Source: Deltaproteobacteria bacterium (GTDB lineage: Bacteria > Myxococcota_A > Polyangia > Haliangiales > Haliangiaceae). Taken from it: a stretch of DNA of 32,705 nt. This document shows, in pieces, positions 1-16,371 of the stretch; position 1 is the first letter of the stretch, and each line of letters begins with the position of its first letter. Position numbers and translations under genes: made by a program. The stretch covers positions 1 through 32,705 of the forward strand of contig JACCRC010000068.1 in assembly GCA_013813765.1 (NCBI GenBank), in the 5' to 3' direction. The notes beneath the pieces were generated by a model. The model was not told the origin of the DNA. It saw nothing but the letters and a program-made list of their open reading frames with translations, and searched no databases.

Positions 1-3000
1 CGCCGCGAACGCTTCCTTGAGGTTCGAGAGGTAGGTCTCGACCTCGCCGCGGAAGCTGCGCCGGCCTGGTGCCGTCGCCATCTTCTCCTTCTCGAGCTTG
101 CTGCCCGCGTCCACGAGGTCATCGCGCAGCGACGAGTCGAGGTTCCAGAACGCGCTGAACGACGCCGCGCGATCGGCGCCGAGCTTCTTCTTGATCGTGC
201 CCATCACCCAGTCGTAGCCACCCTCGCCGTTCTTCTGCACGCTCGACGCGAGCGTCGAGAGCACGAAGCTCCAGATCCGCGTGTCGCGCTCGCCGGCGGT
301 CTTCTGTGCCGACTCCGCGGCCCTCCGCTTCTCCTCCGCCTCGCGCATCTCCTTCGGATCGAGGTTCGGGATGCCGTCCTCCCACACCGCCTCGATGTGC
401 AGCGGGTAGGAGCGATTCGGCTTCGCCTTGACGGTCTTGTAGGAGTTGTAGAGCTCCTCGTTGACGCGCTTGAAGAAGTAGATCGGCACACCGAGCAGCG
501 CCCGGTAGAACACGATCATGTCCTCCTCGCCCCAGCCATCGATGAAGTCGATGCCGCTCGCGGCGCCCTTGATCAGCTGGCGCAAGCTCGTGGCCTCGTC
601 GCCGGAGTAGCGCGGCGCGACACCGACGTAGAACACGTCGGCGGGCACCACACTCGGATCATCGCGTTTGGTCTTGTCGATCGCGGCGAGCAACACACAT
701 TGATCCACGACGCGCCGCAGCTTGTCGGCGAGGTGGTTCTGCACGTCGCGCGACGACACGGACTCGATCGCCTTCTCGTCGGACGGCTTCGCATCCGGCG
801 TGGCGACGTAGCGCGCCTCCATCTCCATCGCTGTGCGCAGGTCGAAGCCCATCTCCGCGAACACGCGGTCGTAGGTGTCCTTCGCCTGGGCCTCGAGCTT
901 CTCGCGGAGGTCCTTCACGATCTCCATCGCGTCCTTCGCGCGCACGCGGCCGTCCTGACCCACGGCGGGCGCAAACGCGGCGGTGATTCCGTCGAAGATC
1001 TTGTCCTCGTCGAAGTACGCGCTCTTGTCGAGCTTGTGCGACCACAGGCGGTTCCACAGCCGCTGGCCGGCGCGGTCGTCGCGCATGACCTCGCTGTCGA
1101 GATAGAACGAGCCTGCATCCGACGCATCGCCGCGCGCCGCCGCCGGATCGATCCGCAGCTTCTCGGCTTCCTGCGCCACGTTGCGCGCGACCTCGTCGGA
1201 GACCGCGGACACCGCGCGGAACTGCGAGAGCCGGACTTCCACGGCGCGCTGCAATTCCTCGTGATAGCGCTGCCAGAAGCTCGCCTTCTGGAAGTCGCGC
1301 TGGCCGGTCTCGACCTGCGTGAACCAGTCCTGCGTCTTGCGGCGGACCTGATCGAACTCCTTGTTCTCGCGCGACAGCACCGAGCCGAGGAAGCCCTTCT
1401 TCGACGTCTCGCGCAGCCGCTTCTCGAGGTCGGCGAACTCGCGCGTCACGTGATCGCGATCGAGATCGAACGCGTTCTCCTTCAGCTCCTGGAGGAACAT
1501 GCCGTCGGCGGCGTCCTCGAACGGCGTCAGGAACCCCTCGCGCTTCAGCTTGATCAGGAAGTAGCGCTGCGAGAGCGGACCGACGGTGTTCGCGCGGAAG
1601 AAGTCGCTGAAGAACCGGCCGCTCTTGAGGTCGGCGATCTGCGAGTCGAGGAAGGACATGACCTTCCCTCGGCTCGCCGCCGCGTCGCGCCGGACGTTCT
1701 CGATCGGCCGCGACAGCGAGGTGTTGCCCTCGTGGACTTGAAGAGGGTCGAACGGCGCGATCTGGATCTGCTCGTCGAGCGTGTTGAACATCTCGGCGAA
1801 CCGGCGGGTCAGCGTCTGGCGCAGCGTCGCGCCGTCCGTGGACTTCTGCGCGACGATCGCGGAGTACACGCCCTTCTCCTGCTGGTCCTCCTCGAGCCGC
1901 GCGACGTGCTCGACATAGCCGTTGAACTTGTCGTCGACGATGCGGTCCTGCTCGTCGCGCGCGAGGCGCTGGAACTTCGGGTCGTCGTACGGCACGCGGA
2001 ACGCGTCGTCCTTGCCCGAGACGAGGTAGGTCTCGAGCACGCGGCCGATCCAGCGGAGCGACGCGTAGTGGACGATGTCCGCACGCGGAAGCACGAGCAC
2101 CGCGGCGCCGAAGCTGCCGTAGTGAACGCTGAAGTTGCCGAGCGCGAGCGACTTCTGGTGCTTGTCGTAGTTGTCGTACTCGCCGGCCTGCGCGCCGATG
2201 ATCGGCGAGAACAGCTGGAGGAACGCGGAGTCGGAGACGGCGTTGATGTAGCGCTCGACGGAGATCTCGTTCGGCTTGTCGATCAGGTAGGTCAGCGCGA
2301 ACGGCCGATTGCGCGCGTGGATGCGCTCCTTGTTCGTCGGGTTGTAGTGGAACTCGACGTCCTCGCGGGATCCCTCGTAGCCGAGCTTCGTGACGAACTC
2401 GAGCTCCTTGAGCGCGGCGTAGCCATTGGCGTTGATGTCCGCGATCAGCGCCTGCTCGACGTCCGCGGTGAACACCGAGGGCAGCATCAGCGTGCCGACG
2501 ATGTTCGGCCGCCCCCAGCCGTGGTCCTTCACGAGATCCTGCAGCAGATAGGCCATCGGGAGGAAGCCGCCCGAGCCGGTGCCGCCGGCGACCGACGCGT
2601 AGATCATCACGTTGATCACGCGGTCCTCGTTGTCGCGGAACGGGTTATCCGGCCGCGACATCGCGTCGAGGATGCGCCGGAACGAGCGCAGGATGCCCGC
2701 GCGATCCTCCTCGAGGTTGTAGTAGATGCCGAGGCGGCTCTCGACGCGGATCTGACCGGCGCCGGCGCCCTGTGCATCGCGGAACTGATAGTCCGGGTGC
2801 ACCCACTGCGTGAGCATCTTGTCCTCGGCGAGCTCCTGCTTGCCGCGCTTGCGCTGGACGTAGGAGCGGCGATCGAACGCGGACACGAGGAACCGGTTCG
2901 ACTCCGGGATGTTCTTCATCGTGTGGAGGTCGGCCTTGTTCGTGTCGATGCCGACGATGTGGATCAGGTCCTTGAACTTTGGATAGTTCGGATGCCGCCG

Positions 3001-3096
3001 GATCTTCCCCGAGAGCATGTTGACCGCCTTGCAGCCCGAGCCCCCCAGGCCCAGGAAGATCGTCGGTGAAAGGCGGTCGGCGCGCAGGATACCCAT
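1..3096 (-). CDS. Tubulin/FtsZ-superfamily protein (Tubulin_2-like), C-terminus cut by window edge
   Basis: Open from an ATG at 3096 to the left edge, giving 1032 codons without a stop, so the C-terminus lies outside. The N-terminal 200 residues carry a tubulin-type nucleotide fold: GLGGSG at residues 16-21, a DTN motif at 51-53 where FtsZ has NTD, a GAGAGQIRVESR stretch near 110-121, and the signature loop GGTGSGG at 171-177. That loop is the GTP-phosphate binding T4 loop of FtsZ/tubulin. The rest is a long, charged, mainly helical region, so the protein is far larger than FtsZ (about 400 aa) and matches the large Tubulin_2 type. An AAGGAG Shine-Dalgarno sits 4 nt before the ATG and supports the start. 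It lies 23 nt after the vWA gene in the same operon, a pairing known for FtsZ-like families linked to membrane remodelling. GTP binding is likely; polymerisation is inference. Confidence 0.88.
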   Translation of the reverse strand, partial: MGILRADRLSPTIFLGLGGSGCKAVNMLSGKIRRHPNYPKFKDLIHIVGIDTNKADLHTMKNIPESNRFLVSAFDRRSYVQRKRGKQELAEDKMLTQWVHPDYQFRDAQGAGAGQIRVESRLGIYYNLEEDRAGILRSFRRILDAMSRPDNPFRDNEDRVINVMIYASVAGGTGSGGFLPMAYLLQDLVKDHGWGRPNIVGTLMLPSVFTADVEQALIADINANGYAALKELEFVTKLGYEGSREDVEFHYNPTNKERIHARNRPFALTYLIDKPNEISVERYINAVSDSAFLQLFSPIIGAQAGEYDNYDKHQKSLALGNFSVHYGSFGAAVLVLPRADIVHYASLRWIGRVLETYLVSGKDDAFRVPYDDPKFQRLARDEQDRIVDDKFNGYVEHVARLEEDQQEKGVYSAIVAQKSTDGATLRQTLTRRFAEMFNTLDEQIQIAPFDPLQVHEGNTSLSRPIENVRRDAAASRGKVMSFLDSQIADLKSGRFFSDFFRANTVGPLSQRYFLIKLKREGFLTPFEDAADGMFLQELKENAFDLDRDHVTREFADLEKRLRETSKKGFLGSVLSRENKEFDQVRRKTQDWFTQVETGQRDFQKASFWQRYHEELQRAVEVRLSQFRAVSAVSDEVARNVAQEAEKLRIDPAAARGDASDAGSFYLDSEVMRDDRAGQRLWNRLWSHKLDKSAYFDEDKIFDGITAAFAPAVGQDGRVRAKDAMEIVKDLREKLEAQAKDTYDRVFAEMGFDLRTAMEMEARYVATPDAKPSDEKAIESVSSRDVQNHLADKLRRVVDQCVLLAAIDKTKRDDPSVVPADVFYVGVAPRYSGDEATSLRQLIKGAASGIDFIDGWGEEDMIVFYRALLGVPIYFFKRVNEELYNSYKTVKAKPNRSYPLHIEAVWEDGIPNLDPKEMREAEEKRRAAESAQKTAGERDTRIWSFVLSTLASSVQKNGEGGYDWVMGTIKKKLGADRAASFSAFWNLDSSLRDDLVDAGSKLEKEKMATAPGRRSFRGEVETYLSNLKEAFAA

Positions 3097-3119
3097 GACG
3101 TCTCCTTGATCAGTGACAA

Positions 3120-5144
3120 CTAGCCAAGCCGGAACACGAACTCGCCGGACTTGTAGACAATCCCTCGTCGAAGATAGATCGGTCCCTTCGAGAGATCGAC
3201 CGGCTGGAACTTCCGAGTGCGCGGGTCTTTTTCTTCGAGCCCGCCATTGATCGTGACCTGCGGATCGCCCTTCGCGGCCTTCAGCAGGATCGACACGCCC
3301 GAGGTCGCGCGGACGGCATTGCCGCCGCCGTCGAACGCGACGCGCGCATCACGATAGAAGCCGCGCTTGCCACCCGGAAGGTCACGCAGCCGGCGTCCAC
3401 CCGCGCGGGTCAGCGCCTGCTCGGTCTTCGCGAGCCGGATCACGTCTTCCTTGTCGAAGTCGCGAGGCCGGATGAAGCCCATCACGATGATGATGAAGAT
3501 GATCGTGCCGATCGCCGCGGCGATGTAGGGCCACCAGCACGTGAGGAACGGCGTCGGCGCGACGGCGTAGCTCATGGGCATCTTCACCGCTTGCGGGTGG
3601 TAGTGCGGATCGATGCCGCGCACGGTGAGCGTCGCGCCCTTCGGCGCCTCGCCGCAGCAGCCCGGCGCGACGAGGCACGCCTCGAACTTGTTGTCCTTCA
3701 CGACGAGCGGGTGCTCGACCTCGAGGCCGAAGCCGCCCGACAGCCCCTCGGCGAGCGCCTCGATCGAGACCTTGTCGGCGTTCACCGAGCCCGCGAGATC
3801 GACGGAGATGCAGCTCTTCGTCTCGTTGCGACCGCCGGTCCAGCTGCCGAAGTCGATCGGCGCGATCTTCAAGTCGAGCGGCGCCCACGCGTCGACCGTG
3901 ATCTCGCGGCTGTCACCAAAGCTCTTCCACTGGTTCTTGAACCGCACGGCGACGCGATCAGTGCGGGGCTCGCCCGCGACCGTCAGCTTGCCGGTGAACG
4001 TGCCGTCGTCGCGCACGGTCATTGGGACCTCGACGTCGCCGATGGCCAGCACCGCGGTGAAGCCGTCCGCCTTGAAGAACGCGGGGTCGTTGAAGGTCTT
4101 GCCGCGCCAGATGATCCGCGCGGTGACCTCGAGCGACTCGCCGACCTTGATCTTCGTCGGCGCCGACACGAGGTCCGCGGTGAGGTCGTACTTGAGCACC
4201 GTGCCGAACGCGACCGGGCCGGAGGCGCCGGGCGGCAGCGTGAGGACCAGGTCCGACTGCTTCTCGGGATCGTGCGAGAAGCGGAACACCTGGTACGCGT
4301 GACACGGCGGGTTCTTGCACCCCGCGTCGCCGGAGTCGACCTGGTTGACGGTCGCGCCGTCCATCGTCAGCTTTGTGGTGAACGGACCGCTCTTGCGTTC
4401 TGTCGCGATGCCGACAAACACGTCGGTGACGTACTTGCCGGCGGAGAACTTGAATGACTCGCCGGGGTTCAGGCGGCCGGTCTCGGGCCGCGAGCGGATC
4501 GAGTCCGCGTACACGTTCGTGAACGCGGCGACGAGCTTTGCCGGATCGGCGATGAACTCGTAGCGGCCGAGCGGCTTGAGGAAGTTCTCCATCGAGTTCA
4601 CGTAGCCCTGCGACTGCTGGCTCAGCGCGAGCGCGACGACCTCGAACTTTCCCGGTCCCGGGTCGAGCCCCAGCAGCTTGCGCGCCTCGGGTGCGGTGAT
4701 CGCGGCTTGGCCGCGCGCTTCCTCCGACGGCGCACCGTCAGTCGCGAACACGAGGATCTTTCGCTGCGCGGTCGAGGCCTCCAGGATCTTCTTCGCCTGG
4801 GTCAGCGGACCGACGACGAACGTCAACGTCCTGAAGTCCATCGAGCGGATGCTCTTCGGATCGTTCGGGATCGTCGCGTAGATCGCGGGGCGCGAGTCGT
4901 CGAACGTGAGGATCGTCAGCTTGTCCTCGGGCCCCATCAGTGCGCGGAACACGAGCGTCGCGATCACCGCGAGGCGGTCCGGATCGTTCGGCGGCAGCGG
5001 CGCCTTCGTGACACTGTCTTCCCCGCCGAGGCCCATGCTGCCCGAGTTATCGAGGACGAGCACCCACTCGGTGTCAGCCGCGACGGGACGCGCCGCGAAG
5101 AGGACCGCGACGAGGACGAACAGGTGGAGCAGCGTGCGCTTCAT
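3120..5144 (-). CDS. vWA-domain membrane protein with signal peptide and C-terminal cytosolic module
   Basis: 674 aa. A signal peptide covers residues 1-23 (hydrophobic core LLHLFVLVAVLFA, AxA-type end). A von Willebrand factor A domain follows from about residue 26, with a complete MIDAS DxSxS (D32, S34, S36) and the second metal-site TDG at 135-137. The central part (about 220-530) is beta-rich and probably Ig-like. One TM segment lies at about 536-558, followed by a 116-residue tail. The tail and TM are clearly homologous to those of the upstream gene (shared CWW, GRRLRDLPGG, FYR, GGLE). The ATG at 5144 overlaps the TGA of the upstream gene as ATGA, which fixes the start although the frame stays open to 5888. 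Expected topology is vWA outside the inner membrane, tail inside. Likely a metal-dependent protein-binding scaffold working with the tubulin-like protein encoded next; its partner is unknown. Confidence 0.9.
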   Translation of the reverse strand: MKRTLLHLFVLVAVLFAARPVAADTEWVLVLDNSGSMGLGGEDSVTKAPLPPNDPDRLAVIATLVFRALMGPEDKLTILTFDDSRPAIYATIPNDPKSIRSMDFRTLTFVVGPLTQAKKILEASTAQRKILVFATDGAPSEEARGQAAITAPEARKLLGLDPGPGKFEVVALALSQQSQGYVNSMENFLKPLGRYEFIADPAKLVAAFTNVYADSIRSRPETGRLNPGESFKFSAGKYVTDVFVGIATERKSGPFTTKLTMDGATVNQVDSGDAGCKNPPCHAYQVFRFSHDPEKQSDLVLTLPPGASGPVAFGTVLKYDLTADLVSAPTKIKVGESLEVTARIIWRGKTFNDPAFFKADGFTAVLAIGDVEVPMTVRDDGTFTGKLTVAGEPRTDRVAVRFKNQWKSFGDSREITVDAWAPLDLKIAPIDFGSWTGGRNETKSCISVDLAGSVNADKVSIEALAEGLSGGFGLEVEHPLVVKDNKFEACLVAPGCCGEAPKGATLTVRGIDPHYHPQAVKMPMSYAVAPTPFLTCWWPYIAAAIGTIIFIIIVMGFIRPRDFDKEDVIRLAKTEQALTRAGGRRLRDLPGGKRGFYRDARVAFDGGGNAVRATSGVSILLKAAKGDPQVTINGGLEEKDPRTRKFQPVDLSKGPIYLRRGIVYKSGEFVFRLG

Positions 5145-7516
5145 TTGATCTGGAAGAAGATGTTCCCCGCCGCGTACACCGTGTTCTTCGACGCGTTGTG
5201 CCCGTCCTTCGTCGCCGCCTCGGGCACCGGCTCGAGCTTCTTCGACTGCGGGCTCACACGCTCGAGGCCGCCGCGGCTCCGGATGATCACCTCGCCCTTG
5301 CGCGCGTGAAGCTGGACGACGGCATTGTCGACCTTGTTCGTCGCCTGGCCGTTCTCGAGGAGGCCGACCGCTGCCGATCGGTACCAGCCCGGGCGTCCAC
5401 CCGGCAGCTCGCGCAACCGGCGACCGGCCGCGCGTGCGAGCTGCTCGCGCTTGCTGGCGAGCTGGACCTGATCGTCGATCGCGAACCGATGCGGTCGCAC
5501 GAAGCCATAGCCGAGGAAGATCACGAACAGGGCACCGCCGATCGCGGCGATGAGCCACCACCAGCAGGCGATCAGGCTGCGGCCTTCGACTTTCCACGTC
5601 ACGTCGATCGTCGCCTTCTGATCGGGGAAGTCCGGCGACACCGCCTGCACGGTCAGCACCGACGCGCCCGACTCGCCCGAGCACCGCGGCACGTCGGCGA
5701 GGCACACCGTCACGCTGCGCGAGTCGAGGATCTCGGTCTCCACACCGTCGCCGTGCAGCGCGAAGCCGACGCCGGTGCCCGCGTCGTAGACGACCGGGTA
5801 GCTCTCGCAGCCCTGCGCGCGCGTCGCGGTCAGCTTGAACCGCTGATAGAGCACGCCGCGCGACTTGTTGAAGTCGAGCTCGACGCACTTCGTGTTCGCC
5901 TTCGTCCCTGCCGGCACCGTGCCTAGATCGAGCGGGCCCTTGAGGTTCAGCTCGATCGGCTCGAGCACGGTGATCGACGCCTGGTCCTTCACCGACCAGC
6001 CGTTCGACTCGGCCGCGGCCTCGAGGCTCACTTCTCCGGAATCGCCCGGGACGACGGTGCCCTTCCAGATCGCGTCGAGGTCACCGAGCTTGTCGGTGGC
6101 GAGCGGGCTCGTCGCACCGCCGGCGCGCGCCGTCATCTTCATCGCCGTCGACTTGATGAACGCCTCGCCGTTCGCGCGCGCCTTCGGATCCGCGGGTAGC
6201 CGGAACTTCGCGGTCACCGGGCACGGCCGGTCCTTGTAGCACTGGCGATCCGGCGTGATCTGGATGCCCACGCCGAGCGACGTGACCTTCGCGTCGACGT
6301 TGGCCGACGGACACACATCCCCTGCTCCACCCTCGGCGATCAGCCGCACGTGAACTTCCTCGCTGTTGGTCTGCGGGCGCGGAATCGTGACCGTGCCCGC
6401 CGCGTTGCCCGTGGCATCGACCGTCGCTGCGAGCTGCTGCTCTTTCTCGGCGCCGATCTGCACGATGAAGAACACCTTCACGCCCGCCGGATTGATCGGC
6501 TTGCCGCCCGCATCGACGAAGTGACCGGCGAGCTTCGTCGGCGCATCCGCGACGAGGATCTCGCCCGACGTCGGCGCATCGAGGCGACCCTCGACGCGGC
6601 AGCCGGCGACCTGGATCGTCTGCTCGCCGGGGGTGATCGTCTTTGGCACCTCGCCGAACACCGCGAACGCCTTCGGCTCGAACCTGAGCGTCACCTGCCC
6701 GCCCTGCGGGATGTTCACCATCGCGAACACGACGCCGTTCTTGCGTGTGCCGTGGATGCGTTTCACTTCCTTGCCGTCGGGCCCGACGATCACGAAGTCG
6801 CCGCGCACGACCTTGCGTGGCTTGCCTCCCTGCGTCGTCTTTGCTCCGCCCTCGACGCGGATCGGCGTGTTCACCGCATACGGACCCGGCGCGATCTTCG
6901 CGACGATTCCGTCGTAGTCCGTCGGCTTCGGCGGCGGCGGCGGTGCGAGCACGACCGGCGCGGGCGGCGGCGGCGGAATCGGAGGCGGAGGTGGTGGAGG
7001 CGGCGGAGGCGGCGGAGGCGGCGGCGCGCTGATCCCGGTATCCGGATCCGGAGGCGGAGGCGGCAGCGGCGGCGGCGGAGGAGGCAGCGGCGGTGGTGGC
7101 GGCGGCAGCGGATTCGCCCCGAAGTACATGCCGCCCTTGTCGGGCGTCGCGCGCGTCGTCGAGGCGCAGCTGTTATGTCCGACGTAGCGGAAGCCCTGGC
7201 TCGGCGACTTGCTCTCGCAGGTCGAGTCCTCCTCGTCCCAGCACGAGTAACAGATACCGCCCTTCTCGACGAAGCCGTGCTGATGCCACGCCTTCTTGAC
7301 GCCGAGGTAGCGCGCGCACGAGTCGGTGATCGTGCGCGTGTTGTCGCCGTTGCTCTGACCGTAGGCCGGGCCTTCGTCAAAGCCCGACGCGCACCACGTC
7401 TTGTTGTCGGCGTTGTCGGCGAGCGCTTCGCCGGAGATGACGAGCAGCAGCGCGCACCCGAACGCGAAGAGGCGCGTGATCATCGAGGAGCCCGCTGTCC
7501 GCGCACGCCGCGTCAT
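5141..7516 (-). CDS. Proline-rich secreted/membrane protein with Cys-rich head and C-terminal module shared with the vWA protein
   Basis: 791 aa from the ATG at 7516. Order: signal peptide (1-33, ending ALA before DN), a Cys-rich head of about 85 residues with eight cysteines, a proline-rich linker (about 135-205) with several poly-Pro runs including one of 15, a long beta-rich region with Ig-like character (about 205-645), one TM (about 650-673) that begins CWWW, and a roughly 118-residue cytosolic tail. TM and tail align throughout with the next gene's (GRRLRELPGG, GWYR, GGLE). The chosen ATG overlaps an upstream TGA as TGATG and has GGAGG 9 nt before it. A shorter start at 7483 would also leave a signal peptide. 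No catalytic motif is visible. The Pro-rich linker suggests that the head is held away from the membrane. Function is not recognised. Confidence 0.82.
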   Translation of the reverse strand: MTRRARTAGSSMITRLFAFGCALLLVISGEALADNADNKTWCASGFDEGPAYGQSNGDNTRTITDSCARYLGVKKAWHQHGFVEKGGICYSCWDEEDSTCESKSPSQGFRYVGHNSCASTTRATPDKGGMYFGANPLPPPPPPLPPPPPPLPPPPPDPDTGISAPPPPPPPPPPPPPPPIPPPPPAPVVLAPPPPPKPTDYDGIVAKIAPGPYAVNTPIRVEGGAKTTQGGKPRKVVRGDFVIVGPDGKEVKRIHGTRKNGVVFAMVNIPQGGQVTLRFEPKAFAVFGEVPKTITPGEQTIQVAGCRVEGRLDAPTSGEILVADAPTKLAGHFVDAGGKPINPAGVKVFFIVQIGAEKEQQLAATVDATGNAAGTVTIPRPQTNSEEVHVRLIAEGGAGDVCPSANVDAKVTSLGVGIQITPDRQCYKDRPCPVTAKFRLPADPKARANGEAFIKSTAMKMTARAGGATSPLATDKLGDLDAIWKGTVVPGDSGEVSLEAAAESNGWSVKDQASITVLEPIELNLKGPLDLGTVPAGTKANTKCVELDFNKSRGVLYQRFKLTATRAQGCESYPVVYDAGTGVGFALHGDGVETEILDSRSVTVCLADVPRCSGESGASVLTVQAVSPDFPDQKATIDVTWKVEGRSLIACWWWLIAAIGGALFVIFLGYGFVRPHRFAIDDQVQLASKREQLARAAGRRLRELPGGRPGWYRSAAVGLLENGQATNKVDNAVVQLHARKGEVIIRSRGGLERVSPQSKKLEPVPEAATKDGHNASKNTVYAAGNIFFQIK

Positions 7517-7815
7517 CAGTTGCCGCCTCCGCTCGGAGGCGTCATGCCCGGCGGGGTGGTCGGCATCGTCGACGGCGCGGTCGCGCCGGGCGCCGCGCTC
7601 GGTGTGACCTTCGCCGGCTGCTTCGCCGCGGGTGGTGTGGTCGCGCCGGAACCCGTCGGTGTTGTGCCGGCGGATCCCGCACTCGCACCGGAGCCTGCAT
7701 TCGCGCCGGAGCCCGCGTTCGCGCCCTTGCCGGCGCCGAGCTTCGTTGCGAAGCCCGCATTCACCTTCGCGCCGAGTCCCGCACCCGAGCCCGAACCCGC
7801 ACCCGAACCCGAACC
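7516..7815 (-). other. Severed C-terminal tail of the PP2C gene (in-frame continuation after a TAG)
   Basis: This 300-bp stretch holds no convincing independent gene. It continues the PP2C reading frame without shift for 99 codons, past the TAG at 7816-7818, to a TGA at 7516-7518 that overlaps the next gene's ATG. Its translation carries on the same Gly/Ser/Ala repeat (GSGSGAGSGSGAG) and then becomes Ala/Thr/Pro-rich. The first possible initiator is a GTG at 7764 with no visible ribosome site. The TAG stands where the repeat predicts TCG (Ser), so a single C-to-A change explains the split. It could be a recently truncated tail, a sequencing error, or an occasional readthrough extension. Confidence 0.6.
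7526..7530 (-). promoter_or_regulatory. Ribosome binding site GGAGG for the proline-rich protein gene
   Basis: GGAGG on the minus strand ends 9 nt before the ATG at 7516, which itself overlaps a TGA as TGATG. This decides between the ATG at 7516 and the ATG at 7483, which has no comparable motif. Confidence 0.6.
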
Positions 7816-9117
7816 CTAACCCGATGCCGCACCCGAACCCGATGCCGCACCCGAGCCGGAGGCCGCACCCGAACCCGCGCCCGATCCCGACGACGAGCCA
7901 GCGCCCGATCCTGCCGACGAGCCAGCGCCCGAGCCTTTCTTTCCGCCGCCACCCCCACCTCCCGTCTTCGGCTGATCCCACACCGGCGCGGTCAACGTCC
8001 CGCCATCCGGCGCCGCGCCCGCGGTACCTCCCGCGTCCGGATCCGCGCCCGCCGCGTCGAAGACGCCGGGCTGCGTTCCACCCTCTCCCGCATCGCGCCC
8101 GGGATTGTTGGTCTGCTGCGAGCCACCACCGCGCGTGAGGAAGAATACGGCCGCCGCAATGCCGACGAGCGCGAGCCCGCCGATCACGAGGATCGCCGCC
8201 TTCTTCGATCGTGCATCGGGCTCGGTCGCGGTTGCCACTGCGGCCTCCTTCGCCCTCTCCTTCGCGACGATCGCGCGCGCCGCAGAGGCGCTCTTCGCGA
8301 CGTCGGTGGTCTTCATCGCGCTGGACGGACCGGGCTCGTCGAGATCGGTCTTGCGTGGGCCGCCCTTGCGAACGGCTCCCTCACCCCACCGCATGATCGT
8401 GACGGTGATGTTGTCGTGACCGCCGCGGCGGTTCGCGAGATCGACGAGCCGCTGCGCAGCCTCGGCCGGCGTGTCCTCGCTACCGAGCTCCGCGATCTCG
8501 TCGTCCTTGACGAGGTCGTAGAGGCCGTCGGAGCACAGCAGCAACAGATCTCCGTCGCGCAGCTCGCGGCCGGCCTCGATGTCGGGCTCCGGCTGCTCTT
8601 CGCCGCGCGCGAAGCCGAGCGCGCGCGTGACGACGTTCGCGTCCTCGTGCGTCTTCGCCTGCTCGGGCGTGAGGATGCCGCGATCGATCATCTTCTGCAC
8701 GCGGGTGTGGTCCGCGGTGCGCCACAGGACGTTCCCGCCGCGCAGGTGATACGCGCGGCTGTCGCCGACGTGTCCGATCCACGCCTCGCCGTTGCGCACG
8801 AACGCGGCGACGGCGGTGGTCCCCATGCCGTCGAGGCCGGCCTTCTCCGCGTGCGCGAGGATGCGCTGGTTCGCGACGAGAAAGCCGTTCTTCAGCCGCT
8901 CCGACGGATCGCTCGCCGGCGAGTTCTGGAAGATCTGCATGATCGCGTCGCAGGCGATCCGGCTCGCGACCTCGCCCGACTCGTGACCGCCCATGCCGTC
9001 GCACACGACGAGCAGCTCGCCGCCAGCGGCCTCGACCTCGCCGCACGCGTCCTCGTTCTGCTCGCGACCTCGACCAACGTCGGTGACCGCATGAAACGTG
9101 TACGCCGGAGCTGCCAT
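7816..9117 (-). CDS. PP2C-family Ser/Thr protein phosphatase with TM anchor and Gly/Ser-rich tail
   Basis: 433 aa. The PP2C (PPM) domain spans residues 5-245 and has its metal-site residues: REQNED (18-23), VCDGMGG (38-44, D40), GMGTT, GDSR with D119, SDGLYD with D197, and GGHDN with D235. These dephosphorylate phospho-Ser/Thr using two metal ions. A 60-residue linker leads to a TM at about 307-327, and an outer tail rich in Gly, Ala and Ser with repeats of GSGAAS. The catalytic domain is therefore cytosolic and membrane-tethered. The ATG is 3 nt after the stop of the vWA-FHA gene. It is the obvious counterpart of the two kinases encoded nearby. The tail ends at a TAG that interrupts the repeat; the ancestral protein was probably about 533 aa. 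Confidence 0.93.
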   Translation of the reverse strand: MAAPAYTFHAVTDVGRGREQNEDACGEVEAAGGELLVVCDGMGGHESGEVASRIACDAIMQIFQNSPASDPSERLKNGFLVANQRILAHAEKAGLDGMGTTAVAAFVRNGEAWIGHVGDSRAYHLRGGNVLWRTADHTRVQKMIDRGILTPEQAKTHEDANVVTRALGFARGEEQPEPDIEAGRELRDGDLLLLCSDGLYDLVKDDEIAELGSEDTPAEAAQRLVDLANRRGGHDNITVTIMRWGEGAVRKGGPRKTDLDEPGPSSAMKTTDVAKSASAARAIVAKERAKEAAVATATEPDARSKKAAILVIGGLALVGIAAAVFFLTRGGGSQQTNNPGRDAGEGGTQPGVFDAAGADPDAGGTAGAAPDGGTLTAPVWDQPKTGGGGGGGKKGSGAGSSAGSGAGSSSGSGAGSGAASGSGAASGSGAASG

Positions 9118-9120
9118 GGT

Positions 9121-10980
9121 CTAGCGGTTCCCCGGATCGAACTTGGTCTTCGGCTTCTGCTTCTTCACCGGAGTCTCCGCCTCTGCCGGTGCCGCAGCCT
9201 CGACCTTCGCAGGAGCGGGCTCATCATCGACGGCGCCCTCGCCGGGTCGCTCGACGACGAGGATCAGATTCTGCGACAGCTTGATCTGATCACCGACCAC
9301 CAGCTTCGCGCGCTCCTTCTCCTTGAGTCGCCGGCCGTTCACGAACGTCCCGTTCGACGATCCGAGATCGCTGACCCAGAGGTCTCCGGACGGGAACAGC
9401 TCGAACTGCGCGTGCCGTCCGCTGATCTGCTTGACGGTGAACCGCAGGTCCACGCCGTCGGCCGGGTCATCGGATCCGCCCGCGACCGTCTTGCGCTTGT
9501 GCAGGCGCCAGCGCTCGCCGGGCGTCGCCCAGCCACCCATTGCGACGAGGTGCGTCTCCGGAAGCGGATCGAGCTCGACCGCGGTCTGCGCCTTCTCGAC
9601 GAGCGGCGCCTCCGGAAGCGGCTCCGGCGCGAGCGGCGCAGGAATGATCTCCGGCTGTGGCTTCTTGCGCAGCAGCACGAACAGCGCCGCGATCAGGAGC
9701 AGCGCACCGGCACCGGCGAGCAGCCAGATCAGCATCGAGCTCTTCGCCTTCGGCGGCGTGCACGTGCCGTCCTTGCACATCGAGCCGGGACCGCACGACT
9801 CGTCGCCCGCGCACGTGCGCGCGACGCATGCGCCGCCCTTGCACTCCTGCCATGCGCCGCACGCCTCGCTGCACGGCTTGTCGCACTTGCCGCCGATGCA
9901 CACGGCGCCGCCGGGACACGCGCCATCGCTCGTGCAGGCGCGCGGCTGACACGTGCCGGCGATGCACTCCGCCCACGGATCGCAGGGCGTCTTGCACAGC
10001 GACGGACAGGGCGCATCGGAGCCCGGCGCCCACGCGGCAGCGGCGAGCTGCGTGCCCGCGCTCCACGCCTCGCGCTTTGCACCCGGCACGTACTCGACAC
10101 GCACGTCGACCGGCTGATTCGATCGTGCGCCGCACAGCTTCGCGTCGAGCACGAGCCAGTTCTTCACCTTCGCACGCGCGTCCCGCAGTCCGTTCGCGAT
10201 CGCTGTCGGGTCGTTCGAGGTGAGGTACGTGCCTGCGGTCTCGGTCACGATGCGATTCAAGTTCGTCGTCGTGGTGACCCAGAACTCGTGCTTGGTGCCC
10301 CTGGGCTTCTTGTCGTCGGTCGGCAGAACCACGCTGATCCGCACGCCCGCTTCCTTCGCCTGCGTGATGATCTTCGCCCACACGGTCTTGTCGACGTCGG
10401 CCTCGTCGCCGGCGTCGGTGAAGACCACGATCTCGCGCAGGCCGGGCTCGCCTTCCTTCGCGGCGAGCGCGATCCCCGCGGCGAGACCGATCGTCACGCT
10501 CGTCGCCTGGCCGGGCTTGCGCTTGCCCACGCTCTGCAGGTCCGCCATGAAGTCCGCCGGCCCGACGTGCACGGGGAACGCCTTGACGTCGAGCGAGAAC
10601 ACGACGAGCGCGAGCTCGTCGCTGCCGGCGTCCTTGCCGTACTCGAAGATCGCGGGCAGCGCGACCCTCGCGCCCTCGCCCGACTTGTACGACGCGCTCT
10701 CGTCGAGCAGGATCACCGTCGTCAGCGGCTTGCCGCGCCCACCGTTGCGCGCGATCGCGAGGTTCGGTGCAGCACCGCCGCCGAGCCACATCGTGAAGTC
10801 GGTGGGCTTGGGGTTCGCGCCGATCGTCTTGTCGTGCTTCGGGTCGGCGGAGAGCAGCACCTGGATCGACCCCGGCGAGGGGCTCGACACCGTCTCGACA
10901 TGGAGACCACCGTCCTGGCTCGGTTGCGCGGCCGCGGTTGCGGCACCGAGCACCAGCGCGAGCGCGACGGCGGCCTTCAC
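9121..10980 (-). CDS. Transmembrane vWA-FHA protein with Cys-rich stalk
   Basis: 619 aa from a GTG at 10980 that overlaps the upstream TGA as GTGA and has GGAAG before it. The frame runs upstream to an ATG at 11028, but only the GTG gives a clean signal peptide (1-18). Order: vWA domain about 86-270 with MIDAS D93/S95/S97 and TDAG at 188-191; a Cys-rich stalk at 325-407 with EGF-like C-x3-5-C spacing; TM at 414-436; FHA domain at about 490-578 with SGRHA (520-524) and SSNGTFVNG (541-549); a Pro/Ala-rich tail. Topology places the vWA outside and the FHA in the cytosol. FHA domains bind phosphothreonine, so this protein could couple an external ligand to kinase/PP2C signalling. The usual GR of FHA strand 3-4 is not obvious (AGG at 500-502), so phosphopeptide binding may be altered. 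Confidence 0.92.
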   Translation of the reverse strand: MKAAVALALVLGAATAAAQPSQDGGLHVETVSSPSPGSIQVLLSADPKHDKTIGANPKPTDFTMWLGGGAAPNLAIARNGGRGKPLTTVILLDESASYKSGEGARVALPAIFEYGKDAGSDELALVVFSLDVKAFPVHVGPADFMADLQSVGKRKPGQATSVTIGLAAGIALAAKEGEPGLREIVVFTDAGDEADVDKTVWAKIITQAKEAGVRISVVLPTDDKKPRGTKHEFWVTTTTNLNRIVTETAGTYLTSNDPTAIANGLRDARAKVKNWLVLDAKLCGARSNQPVDVRVEYVPGAKREAWSAGTQLAAAAWAPGSDAPCPSLCKTPCDPWAECIAGTCQPRACTSDGACPGGAVCIGGKCDKPCSEACGAWQECKGGACVARTCAGDESCGPGSMCKDGTCTPPKAKSSMLIWLLAGAGALLLIAALFVLLRKKPQPEIIPAPLAPEPLPEAPLVEKAQTAVELDPLPETHLVAMGGWATPGERWRLHKRKTVAGGSDDPADGVDLRFTVKQISGRHAQFELFPSGDLWVSDLGSSNGTFVNGRRLKEKERAKLVVGDQIKLSQNLILVVERPGEGAVDDEPAPAKVEAAAPAEAETPVKKQKPKTKFDPGNR

Positions 10981-11672
10981 GCCGGCTTCCACAGCGCCGA
11001 GACCTTCGCCTGATCGAGCAGCCGGCACATGAGGTTCGTGCGGCCGAGCCGGATCACATCGCCGTCCTTGAGGTCGGTCTTCTCCATGACGTCGGCCTCG
11101 TTGAGGAACGTGCCGTTCTGCGACTTCTCGTCGTCGACGATGGTGCGACCGTTGCGCCAGAGCAGCACCGCGTGCGTGCTCGACACCATATCGTCGCCCT
11201 CGATCACGATGTCGCAGTCCTCGTCGCGACCCATCGTGTTGCGGCCCTCTCGGATCACCCAGTAGTGGCCTTCGACCACGCGGTCGAACGTCACCAGGAA
11301 GCCAACGATCCGTCGGCCCGCGTTCTTGTCCTGCTGCTTCTTCGCCTTCGGATCCGGTGGAGCGAACGGATCGCTCGGGTCCTTGCCGCCGGCGGCGGGA
11401 CCGTCGAACATCGTCTTGTACTTCGGCTTCGCAGCGCCGCCCGCGAACGGATCGGCGGGCGGCGGCGGCGGCTTCGGCGGCGAGGCACTCCCGACACGCG
11501 GGGCGAACGGATCGAGCGGGTCGGCCGCCATCTCCGTCTTGTGCTTGGGCGCCGGGCCGCCCTCCATCTCGGTCTTCCGCTTACCCGCGGGTGCGTTCCC
11601 GAGCGGAGTGCCGCAGAAGTCGCAAAAATCGATGCCTTCGGCATTTGGCCGCTTGCAAGACGGACAGTTCAT
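10977..11672 (-). CDS. Zinc-ribbon FHA-domain protein with three KxKT motifs
   Basis: 231 aa, cytosolic (no signal or TM). An N-terminal zinc ribbon has C3-x2-C6 and C17-x2-C20. A disordered linker (25-118) is rich in Pro and Lys, with three DPFA repeats and three near-identical motifs K-x-K-T-[EM]-[MF] (T34, T46, T87). The C-terminal FHA domain (about 122-218) is complete: GRDEDCDI (148-155), SSTHA (164-168), SQNGTFLN (184-191). FHA domains read phosphothreonine. The arrangement recalls small FHA proteins with phosphorylatable N-terminal threonines, such as mycobacterial GarA, where the tail binds its own FHA; that parallel is inference. It is the first gene of its operon, starting 95 bp from the divergent kinase gene, and its TGA overlaps the next GTG. 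Confidence 0.92.
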   Translation of the reverse strand: MNCPSCKRPNAEGIDFCDFCGTPLGNAPAGKRKTEMEGGPAPKHKTEMAADPLDPFAPRVGSASPPKPPPPPADPFAGGAAKPKYKTMFDGPAAGGKDPSDPFAPPDPKAKKQQDKNAGRRIVGFLVTFDRVVEGHYWVIREGRNTMGRDEDCDIVIEGDDMVSSTHAVLLWRNGRTIVDDEKSQNGTFLNEADVMEKTDLKDGDVIRLGRTNLMCRLLDQAKVSALWKPA

Positions 11673-11767
11673 AGAGCCCCCGGCATACAGACGATCAGCG
11701 GCACGCTACCACAGCAAACACGGTGCAGTCCCCTGATCGATCAGGCGGAACTGCAGTGTTAGTGTGC
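11673..11767. promoter_or_regulatory. Divergent promoter region between the FHA operon and the kinase pair
   Basis: This 95-bp gap is the only place between oppositely facing operons, so it should hold both promoters. I could not assign -35/-10 boxes with confidence. It contains the palindrome at 11732-11745. No strong Shine-Dalgarno precedes the kinase ATG at 11768. In-frame GTG codons at 11723 and 11762 are possible alternative starts. Confidence 0.6.
11732..11745. promoter_or_regulatory. Perfect 14-bp palindrome, candidate operator
   Basis: CCTGATCGATCAGG is a perfect inverted repeat in the divergent promoter gap. Weaker outer arms TGCAGT (11724-11729) and ACTGCA (11750-11755) flank it, offset by two bases from symmetry. 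Such a site could bind a dimeric regulator of both operons. No regulator gene is present in the window. Confidence 0.45.
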
Positions 11768-13918
11768 ATGGTGATGCTTCCTGCTGGAAGCCGTGTAGGC
11801 GACTACGAGATCGAAGCCGAGCTGGGTGAAGGCGGCATGGCGCGGGTGTACCGCGCGCGGCACGCCCTCCTCGACACCCCGCACGCGGTCAAGGTCCTCG
11901 ACAGCGCGCTGCGCACCAACGCGGACGCGCGCCAGCGCTTCCTCGACGAGGCGCGCATCCAGGCCAAGCACCTCGATCACCCGGGCATCGTCAAGGTCAC
12001 GAACATCGTCGCCACCGCGGACCACGCGGCGCTCGTGATGGAGCTGATCGAGGGTTCGAGCCTCGAGGCGCTGATGCACGAGCTGGTGAACGACCCCGCC
12101 GAGATCCGCCGCATCATGCTCGCGGTCCTCGATGCGGTGGGGCACGCACACGCTGCCGGCATCGTGCACCGCGACCTCAAGCCGGCGAACGTGCTGCTCG
12201 CGGGCAAGGGTCGCGTCCCGAAGGTCTCGGACTTCGGCATCGCGAAGCTGAGCGATCCCGAGCGCGCCGCATCGAAGAAGTCCACGCACGCGGGCGCGCG
12301 CATGGGGACGCTCGCGTACATGAGCCCGGAGCAGATCCGCCGCGCCAAGGACGTCACGCCGCGCTCCGACATCTTCTCGCTCGGCGCGATGCTGTACGAG
12401 CTTGCCACCGGTGCGATGCCGTTCGAGGGGGCCGATGACTTCGAGGTGATGGAGAAGATCGTCCACGGCAGGTATCGGCCGCCGGCCGAGGTCAACCCGC
12501 GGATCGATCCGGTGTTCGTCACGGTGATCGACAAGGCACTCGAGTCCGCGCCCGGCGATCGATACCAATCGTGCGACGACATGGCCGCGGCGCTCCGCGA
12601 GGACCTGAAGCCCGTGGCGCGGCCGCAGGACTCGGTGCCGAACATGGCGCCGCCGAAGTCACGCGTGAACCTCGCGATCGGCGGCGCAGTCGCGGGACTC
12701 GTCGTGATCGGCGCCGCGCTGTTCGTGGTGGATCCGGGCGGCGGGTCCGAGCCCGATCCGGTGCGGCCTCCGGTGGTCGAGGATCTCGCGATCTATCGCA
12801 AGGCGCTCGGCCTCCACGGCAAGTTCATGTCGGCGACGATCGAGACCTCGGCCGGCATCGTCCGCTGCAACCTTCTTCACGACCAATCGCCGATCGGGGT
12901 CGCGAACTTCATCGGCCTCGCGAGCGGGCAGAAGCCGTGGCGCGATGGAGCCGGCCGCATCCACACGAACCAGCCGTACTACGACGGGACCGCCGTCTAT
13001 CGGGTGATCCCGGCGTTCCTCGTGCAGGCGGGCCGGCCGGCGGATACGCTCGATGTGCCGAGCAACCCCGGCTACACGTTCGCGGACGAGAAGAGCGCCT
13101 TGATCCACCTTCCCGGGTCGCTCGCGTTGGCGAACAGCGGGCCGGACACGAACGGCGCCGAGCTGGTGTTCGTGCTCGAGCGAGCGCAGCGGCTCGATGG
13201 CACCGAGACGATCATCGGCAAGTGCCCCGACATCACCGTGCTGACGGCGATCTCGACGCTCGACCGCGACTCGAAGGACCGCCCTCTGCTCCCGGTGACG
13301 ATCAGGAGCGTCCGCTTCGAGGACAAGATGGTGGGCCTCGCGGAGAAGCCGGTCGAGGAGAAGAAGCAGGAGAAGAAGCAGGCGAAGCCGGAACGGATCC
13401 ACATCGTCCCGCTCGAAGGGAGCCCGGTCGAGGGCCCGAGCGACGCAAAGGTCACCATCGTCGCGTTCCTCGATCTCGCCGAGCCGTACTCTGGAAAGCT
13501 GTGGCCCTCGCTGCGGAAGGTGATGCGCGAGCGCGCCGGCTCGGTGAACCTCGTGATCAAGCACGTGACGGTCCATCCGGGGACGGGCAACCTTGCCGGG
13601 CTCGCGATGTGCGCGGCGCGCAACCAGGGCAAGGCCCACGCGTTCGCCGAGGCGGTGTGGGCGGAGCTGCCGCGCAAGGACATCACGCCGGCATCGCTGC
13701 GCAAGGTCGCCGTTAGCCTCGGCCTCGACCGCGCGAAGTTCGATGCGGACGTCGACGGCGCGCTGTGCTGGAGCCGGTTCGAGACCGACACGAAGCTGTT
13801 CGGCAAGCTCGGGATCACCGGCGTGCCGCAGACGTTCATCAACGGGCGCGGCATCACCGGCGCGCAGCCGTACGAGAAACTGCTCGAGATGGTCGACGAG
13901 GAGCTGAAGAGTGAGTGA
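11768..13918 (+). CDS. Receptor Ser/Thr kinase fused to a cyclophilin and a cysteine-less DsbA-like domain
   Basis: 716 aa. The Hanks-type kinase domain (12-280) is complete: GEGGMARVY glycine loop (20-28), catalytic Lys42, HRDLKPANVLL with D136, DFG at 155-157, SPE at 186-188. A TM follows at about 301-321. The extracytoplasmic part begins with a cyclophilin-type peptidyl-prolyl isomerase (about 355-518) with the catalytic-region signature YRVIPAFLVQAG (411-422, R412) and a GAELVFVL segment. A charged Lys/Glu linker leads to a DsbA/thioredoxin-like domain (about 545-712) that keeps the cis-Pro loop GVPQTF (685-690) but has EPYS (572-575) where the family has CPYC, so it cannot be a thiol oxidoreductase. 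The start ATG is chosen for agreement with the paralogue downstream. It overlaps the next kinase gene by 8 nt. Likely role: sensing misfolded or client proteins in the envelope and phosphorylating cytosolic FHA partners (inference). Confidence 0.9.
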   Translation: MVMLPAGSRVGDYEIEAELGEGGMARVYRARHALLDTPHAVKVLDSALRTNADARQRFLDEARIQAKHLDHPGIVKVTNIVATADHAALVMELIEGSSLEALMHELVNDPAEIRRIMLAVLDAVGHAHAAGIVHRDLKPANVLLAGKGRVPKVSDFGIAKLSDPERAASKKSTHAGARMGTLAYMSPEQIRRAKDVTPRSDIFSLGAMLYELATGAMPFEGADDFEVMEKIVHGRYRPPAEVNPRIDPVFVTVIDKALESAPGDRYQSCDDMAAALREDLKPVARPQDSVPNMAPPKSRVNLAIGGAVAGLVVIGAALFVVDPGGGSEPDPVRPPVVEDLAIYRKALGLHGKFMSATIETSAGIVRCNLLHDQSPIGVANFIGLASGQKPWRDGAGRIHTNQPYYDGTAVYRVIPAFLVQAGRPADTLDVPSNPGYTFADEKSALIHLPGSLALANSGPDTNGAELVFVLERAQRLDGTETIIGKCPDITVLTAISTLDRDSKDRPLLPVTIRSVRFEDKMVGLAEKPVEEKKQEKKQAKPERIHIVPLEGSPVEGPSDAKVTIVAFLDLAEPYSGKLWPSLRKVMRERAGSVNLVIKHVTVHPGTGNLAGLAMCAARNQGKAHAFAEAVWAELPRKDITPASLRKVAVSLGLDRAKFDADVDGALCWSRFETDTKLFGKLGITGVPQTFINGRGITGAQPYEKLLEMVDEELKSE

Positions 13919-15701: not shown

Positions 15702-16371
15702 GCCCGTTCTTCGTCTCGGGCTCGTCAGGACACTTGTCGCTACCGTCGGGGAAGCCATCCCTGTCCCGATCCACCGGCTGCTTCGCTTTCGCGGGGCCAT
15801 AGAGGCAGTTCGTCGTGTTCGCCTCGTTCGGACACGGGTCGTCGAAGTCCGGCCGGCCGTCGCGATCGCTGTCTTTCGGCGTTGCATCCGGGCAGCCGTC
15901 GTCGTCCATGAAGCCGTTCCTCACCTCCGGCTGTGCCGGGCACTTGTCGGTCGCATCGCCGACCCCGTCGCCATCATTGTCGGGGTCCGGGCAGCCGTCG
16001 TCGTCCTGAAAGCGGTCCTTGTCCTCCGCTTCGTTCGGGCACTTGTCCGCGGCGTCCCGGATGCCATCACCGTCGTTGTCGAGCTCGGGGCAGCCGTCGT
16101 CGTCCTGAAAGCCGTCCTTGTCCTCCGGCTCCGTCGGGCACTTGTCGACGGCGTCGGCTGTGCCATCGTCGTCGTTGTCGGCATCGGGACAGCCGTCGTC
16201 GTCCTGAAACGCGTCCTTGTCCTCGGGCTCATTCGCGCAGCTGTCGGCGGCGTCAGCGATCCCATCACCGTCGACATCGCCATCGGCAGCCGGTGGCGAG
16301 ACGGGCGGGGCATCCAGGGGCTTGCGAGCGGCACAGGCCACGAGCACGAGCAGAAGTATCAGTCGGGACAT
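15673..16371 (-). CDS. Thrombospondin type 3 repeat lipoprotein (second of tandem pair)
   Basis: 232 aa. A lipobox LVAC ends at C13, so it is a lipoprotein. The mature part is almost wholly Ca-binding TSP3 repeats of about 36 residues, each with DxDxDG, DKCP and DGCPD. Such repeats usually form rigid linkers before OmpA-like peptidoglycan-binding domains in outer-membrane proteins, but no OmpA domain follows here. It ends in the same KNGLxDGDGCPD as the preceding gene, indicating gene duplication. Its ATG at 16371 lies inside the upstream gene, overlapping it by 13 nt. Its 3' end overlaps the convergent kinase gene. Role inferred: calcium-stiffened periplasmic or surface spacer. Confidence 0.88.
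   Translation of the reverse strand: MSRLILLLVLVACAARKPLDAPPVSPPAADGDVDGDGIADAADSCANEPEDKDAFQDDDGCPDADNDDDGTADAVDKCPTEPEDKDGFQDDDGCPELDNDGDGIRDAADKCPNEAEDKDRFQDDDGCPDPDNDGDGVGDATDKCPAQPEVRNGFMDDDGCPDATPKDSDRDGRPDFDDPCPNEANTTNCLYGPAKAKQPVDRDRDGFPDGSDKCPDEPETKNGLKDGDGCPD

Follow-up and report, generated by a model that had tools for sequence, protein, structure and literature searches.

Four genes form an operon-like row on the minus strand of the window, by which we mean the whole stretch of 32,705 nucleotides that was analysed. In the order of reading, they encode an FHA-domain protein (9121..11028), a PP2C phosphatase (7816..9117), a protein that we call P0001 (5141..7516) and a vWA-domain protein (3120..5144). 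The FHA and vWA domains were assigned with Pfam, and the N-terminal part of the FHA protein was judged by eye to be vWA-like. The FHA gene ends with TAG, 3 nt ahead of the PP2C start. The vWA gene, which also ends with TAG, overlaps the end of the P0001 gene as ATGA. P0001 has 791 residues and is secreted or membrane-like. It matched no Pfam family, and its orthologues were found in four other genomes (G003, G018, G031 and G032). Near its N-terminus it carries a long proline-rich repeat (window 6929-7111, a period-3 CGG array), so that two adjacent genes both contain low-complexity repeats.

The PP2C gene opens at ATG 9117, and its first in-frame stop is TAG at 7818-7816. Read with the standard code, it encodes 433 residues, consisting of the catalytic domain, a transmembrane segment and the first part of a Ser/Gly/Ala tail; without the TAG, the full form would have 532 residues. 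The catalytic domain matched PF00481 (PP2C) with 69.2 bits against the curated Pfam cut-off of 20.3, and PF13672 (PP2C_2) with 67.8 bits against a cut-off of 24. The motifs NED, DGMGGH, GDSR, SDGL and GGHDNIT, which we take to be the metal-binding aspartate motifs of a PP2C-type phosphatase, follow in this order. All of them lie 5ʹ of the TAG, as does the hydrophobic membrane segment at residues 309-327.

The TAG lies inside a 6/18-base repeat array detected by Tandem Repeats Finder (7778..7890, minus strand), and the sequence around it reads GGT TCG GGT GCG GCA TCG GGT TAG GGT TCG GGT TCG GGT GCG. This reading agrees with the preliminary description, which had placed the TAG at 7816-7818 in the slot of a serine codon of the PP2C repeat tail. 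The repeat was also said to resume immediately after the stop, which holds for the 6-base sub-unit GGTTCG but not for the full 18-base unit. Thirteen TCG codons are found among codons 386-433 and each differs from TAG by a single base, thus such a repeat is prone to nonsense changes.

Beyond the TAG, the frame stays open for 99 codons (7516..7815, minus strand) until TGA at 7518-7516. The A of this TGA is also the first base of ATG 7516-7514, giving TGATG at the start of P0001. Both the 99-codon frame and its overlapping end had been described before, and were confirmed by our reading of the minus strand; the distance between the two genes, which had been given as about 300 bp, was counted as 299 nt (7815-7517). 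The length of the open frame is unsurprising in such GC-rich sequence: the segment was open over 99 codons in 1202 of 2000 dinucleotide-preserving shuffles. Therefore, only the comparison with relatives can make the case that the frame once belonged to the gene. No further damage was found in the operon, as the P0001, vWA and FHA genes are all open.

The start of P0001 at 7516 is preceded by a Shine-Dalgarno-like GGAGG (7526..7530, minus strand), 9 nt 5ʹ of the ATG and within the last codons of the PP2C frame. The junction string that contains it ahead of the P0001 start, GAGCGGAGGCGGCA, is identical in G018. An alternative start, ATG 7483, overlaps another TGA, at 7482, that is in frame with PP2C; no GGAGG-like motif was found before it, so 7516 is the likelier start. 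In the P0001 frame between 7980 and 7517 there is no ATG, GTG or TTG, and a ribosome terminating at 7816 therefore has no close place to restart in that interval. Pattern scans for promoters and terminators over 7400-8000, which covered only sigma-70-type sites, found none. Because the GGAGG is kept and this interval offers no other start codon, P0001 probably initiates independently at 7516, and can probably still start by its own GGAGG.

We searched 56 genomes for P0001 at E <= 1e-30, and five, including the source genome, encode it. In G003, which belongs to the same genus, the PP2C protein has 549 residues with no in-frame stop, and its gene overlaps the next start as GTGA. In G018, of the same family, the PP2C copy is split across two contigs, with the break in or near the tail; where the tail adjoins P0001, it has no stop between the membrane segment and a GTGA overlap. 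The tail of G031, of the same order, is open through to an ATGA overlap. In G032 the P0001 match starts 508 bases into the contig, with residue 187 as its first aligned residue, and no readable junction was found. The in-frame stop was thus absent from, and the 4-nt overlap between PP2C and P0001 present in, all three relatives with a readable junction. A relative having the same stop with no conserved downstream frame was sought and did not appear among these three.

The PP2C tails themselves differ strongly between relatives. The peptide encoded after the TAG nevertheless scored 163 when aligned with the G003 tail, whereas 1000 shuffles averaged 109 and never exceeded 151; the five other frames scored 31-68. 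When the first 14 repeat codons were removed, the score was 133, which was reached by 2 of 1000 shuffles. The words GFA[ST]KLG and PPGMTP are common to both peptides. Taken with the open frames and 4-nt overlaps of the relatives, this similarity indicates that the long frame and the overlapping junction are ancestral, as had been proposed for the junction, and that the TAG, seen in this assembly only, is derived. Judged by omega against G003 (0.24 for the PP2C core and 0.31 for P0001), both proteins are under ordinary constraint, although these values span the whole split of the two lineages and can neither date the TAG nor test constraint since it arose.

Wider searches yielded no additional PP2C-P0001 junction. 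P0001 was found in 5 of 35 genomes of the order, and its C-terminal 486 residues in 3 of 96 genomes of the class, the source genome being included in both counts. A search of contigs gave one locus (L050) with coordinates and stop contexts identical to those in genome G112; the two seem to be one contig. There, an FHA/vWA gene lies upstream of the P0001 relative, with no PP2C gene in between.

TAG terminates the FHA and vWA genes of this operon, and the vWA gene also in G003, G018 and G031. Since it closes two genes of the same operon, TAG is a working stop, and reassignment of TAG to a sense codon was rejected on the same ground. No suppressor tRNA with a CTA anticodon was found in the loci covering 56 tRNA matches, in a genome that is 88% complete. 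One of these loci (L089, G000:C70:1-9000) contains an array of 21 tRNA genes at 2507-8441 by ARAGORN, none with a CTA anticodon. Next to it are two ORFs, one of which matches phrog_850 'RNA-binding protein' with E 1.3e-92, while the other encodes an HNH endonuclease. The array is putatively mobile or phage-like, and either belongs to the source genome or was binned with it. In another locus (L093, G000:C71:10400-10800), a tRNA-like gene at 188-261 was reported by ARAGORN with an anticodon of two bases only, 'ca'.

We consider it probable that the TAG is a real, derived nonsense allele, a single-base change that leaves the PP2C protein 99 residues shorter. The change would have hit one codon of the TCG-rich Ser/Gly/Ala repeat and would spare the catalytic domain and the membrane segment, both encoded 5ʹ of it. 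What is lost would be a stretch of tail that changes fast, is probably disordered and lies beyond the membrane; the phosphatase would therefore be expected to keep its activity. Nonsense alleles with a shortened C-terminal tail are well known, in which a one-base change falls in a dispensable low-complexity tail and the conserved domain stays intact. The present case is the same in kind, and only its setting differs, namely an overlapping operon junction and a G-rich repeat. The truncation is probably ordinary and near-neutral, with no new mechanism.

The effect on the next gene would come from the position of termination, as the stop in use is not at the P0001 start but 299 nt upstream of it. 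Ribosomes stopping at the TAG would fail to reach that start, so termination-reinitiation coupling would be lost and P0001 would rely on its own GGAGG. The ancestral junction, of the ATGA/GTGA/TGATG form, resembles those described in studies of termination-reinitiation (PMC6728339, PMC10666635), and a premature stop upstream of the junction is the device used there to break coupling. In the E. coli experiments, reinitiation fell by 80-90% in two gene pairs when 38 nt lay between the genes, and in a third pair it was lost altogether (PMC10666635). In the four Haloferax volcanii constructs described, a premature stop before the overlap left the downstream reporter untranslated (PMC6728339). The present case differs in that the stop is natural (or an error), and in that 299 nt lie between the stop and the next start, against at most 38 nt in the E. 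coli constructs. From the distance and premature-stop experiments in these reports (PMC10666635, PMC6728339), 299 nt would be expected to end coupling, and the coupling of P0001 should by analogy be weakened or lost. Because the junction between P0001 and the vWA gene is intact as ATGA, a direct effect of the TAG would reach only P0001.

It is possible, though we think it unlikely, that the TAG arose by error in sequencing or assembly, or is the base of a minority strain, and that the organism makes the full 532-residue protein. The genome is a draft of 562 contigs with the incompleteness given above, and the site falls within a short-period, G-rich repeat. Such a place may be more error-prone, and it has the only two G-quadruplex motifs of the window (scan for G3N1-7 on both strands; both in the PP2C tail). 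The break of the G018 copy in or near the tail suggests that this tail may assemble poorly, and the absence of the stop from relatives is also what an error would give. The assembly is, however, not full of false stops: elsewhere in this genome, in-frame stops were absent from those of the 154 kinase matches that were listed, and likewise from 64 ABC and 11 PP2C matches, although none of these is a low-complexity repeat. Furthermore, the TAG is a substitution and not an indel, and the frame continues on either side of it.

Partial readthrough of a leaky TAG, perhaps aided by a G-quadruplex array in the mRNA, would give long and short PP2C proteins and retain some coupling. Eight G3-N3 tracts at 7822-7778 form a G-quadruplex motif with the TAG in its first loop. 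The predicted fold of a 90-nt stretch reached -42.5 kcal/mol when G-quadruplexes were allowed against -32.8 kcal/mol when they were not. In the experiment described in PMC3919603, which used reticulocyte lysate, readthrough was 0.3% without a G-quadruplex and 1.5% with one. The likeness to that system is a G-rich array directly after a stop; there it was an artificial (G3U)4, while here the stop is non-conserved and known from sequence. For the full 299 nt that follow the TAG, the same fold was predicted with or without G-quadruplexes, and the G3-N3 tracts are a plain consequence of the codons of the repeat. The stop is conserved in none of the three readable relatives, and the tRNA loci offered no suppressor. 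The nonsense allele accounts for the same facts more simply, and we consider a leaky stop highly improbable. The further idea that the organism has two PP2C forms, with and without an extended extracytoplasmic tail, and that readthrough tunes P0001 translation is more doubtful still. That the frame after the TAG was never coding, the short PP2C protein being original and the frame open by chance, would fit the many open shuffles and the strong variation of tails, but is barely credible against a similarity to the G003 tail restricted to the PP2C frame and an overlap present in every readable relative.

If the TAG is a real nonsense allele, as we favour, this would be a natural operon that lost its overlapping stop-start junction by one base with both genes kept, and a small natural test of the dependence of P0001 on coupling. 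If it is an error, it is a reminder that the G-rich repeat tails of draft genomes need read support.

Two further features were observed elsewhere in the window. The Pfam domains of a single ORF on the plus strand (11723-13918) make an unusual combination: Ser/Thr kinase, cyclophilin-type isomerase and DSBA-like thioredoxin. At 15886-16273 there is a 99/198-base tandem repeat of 3.9 copies.
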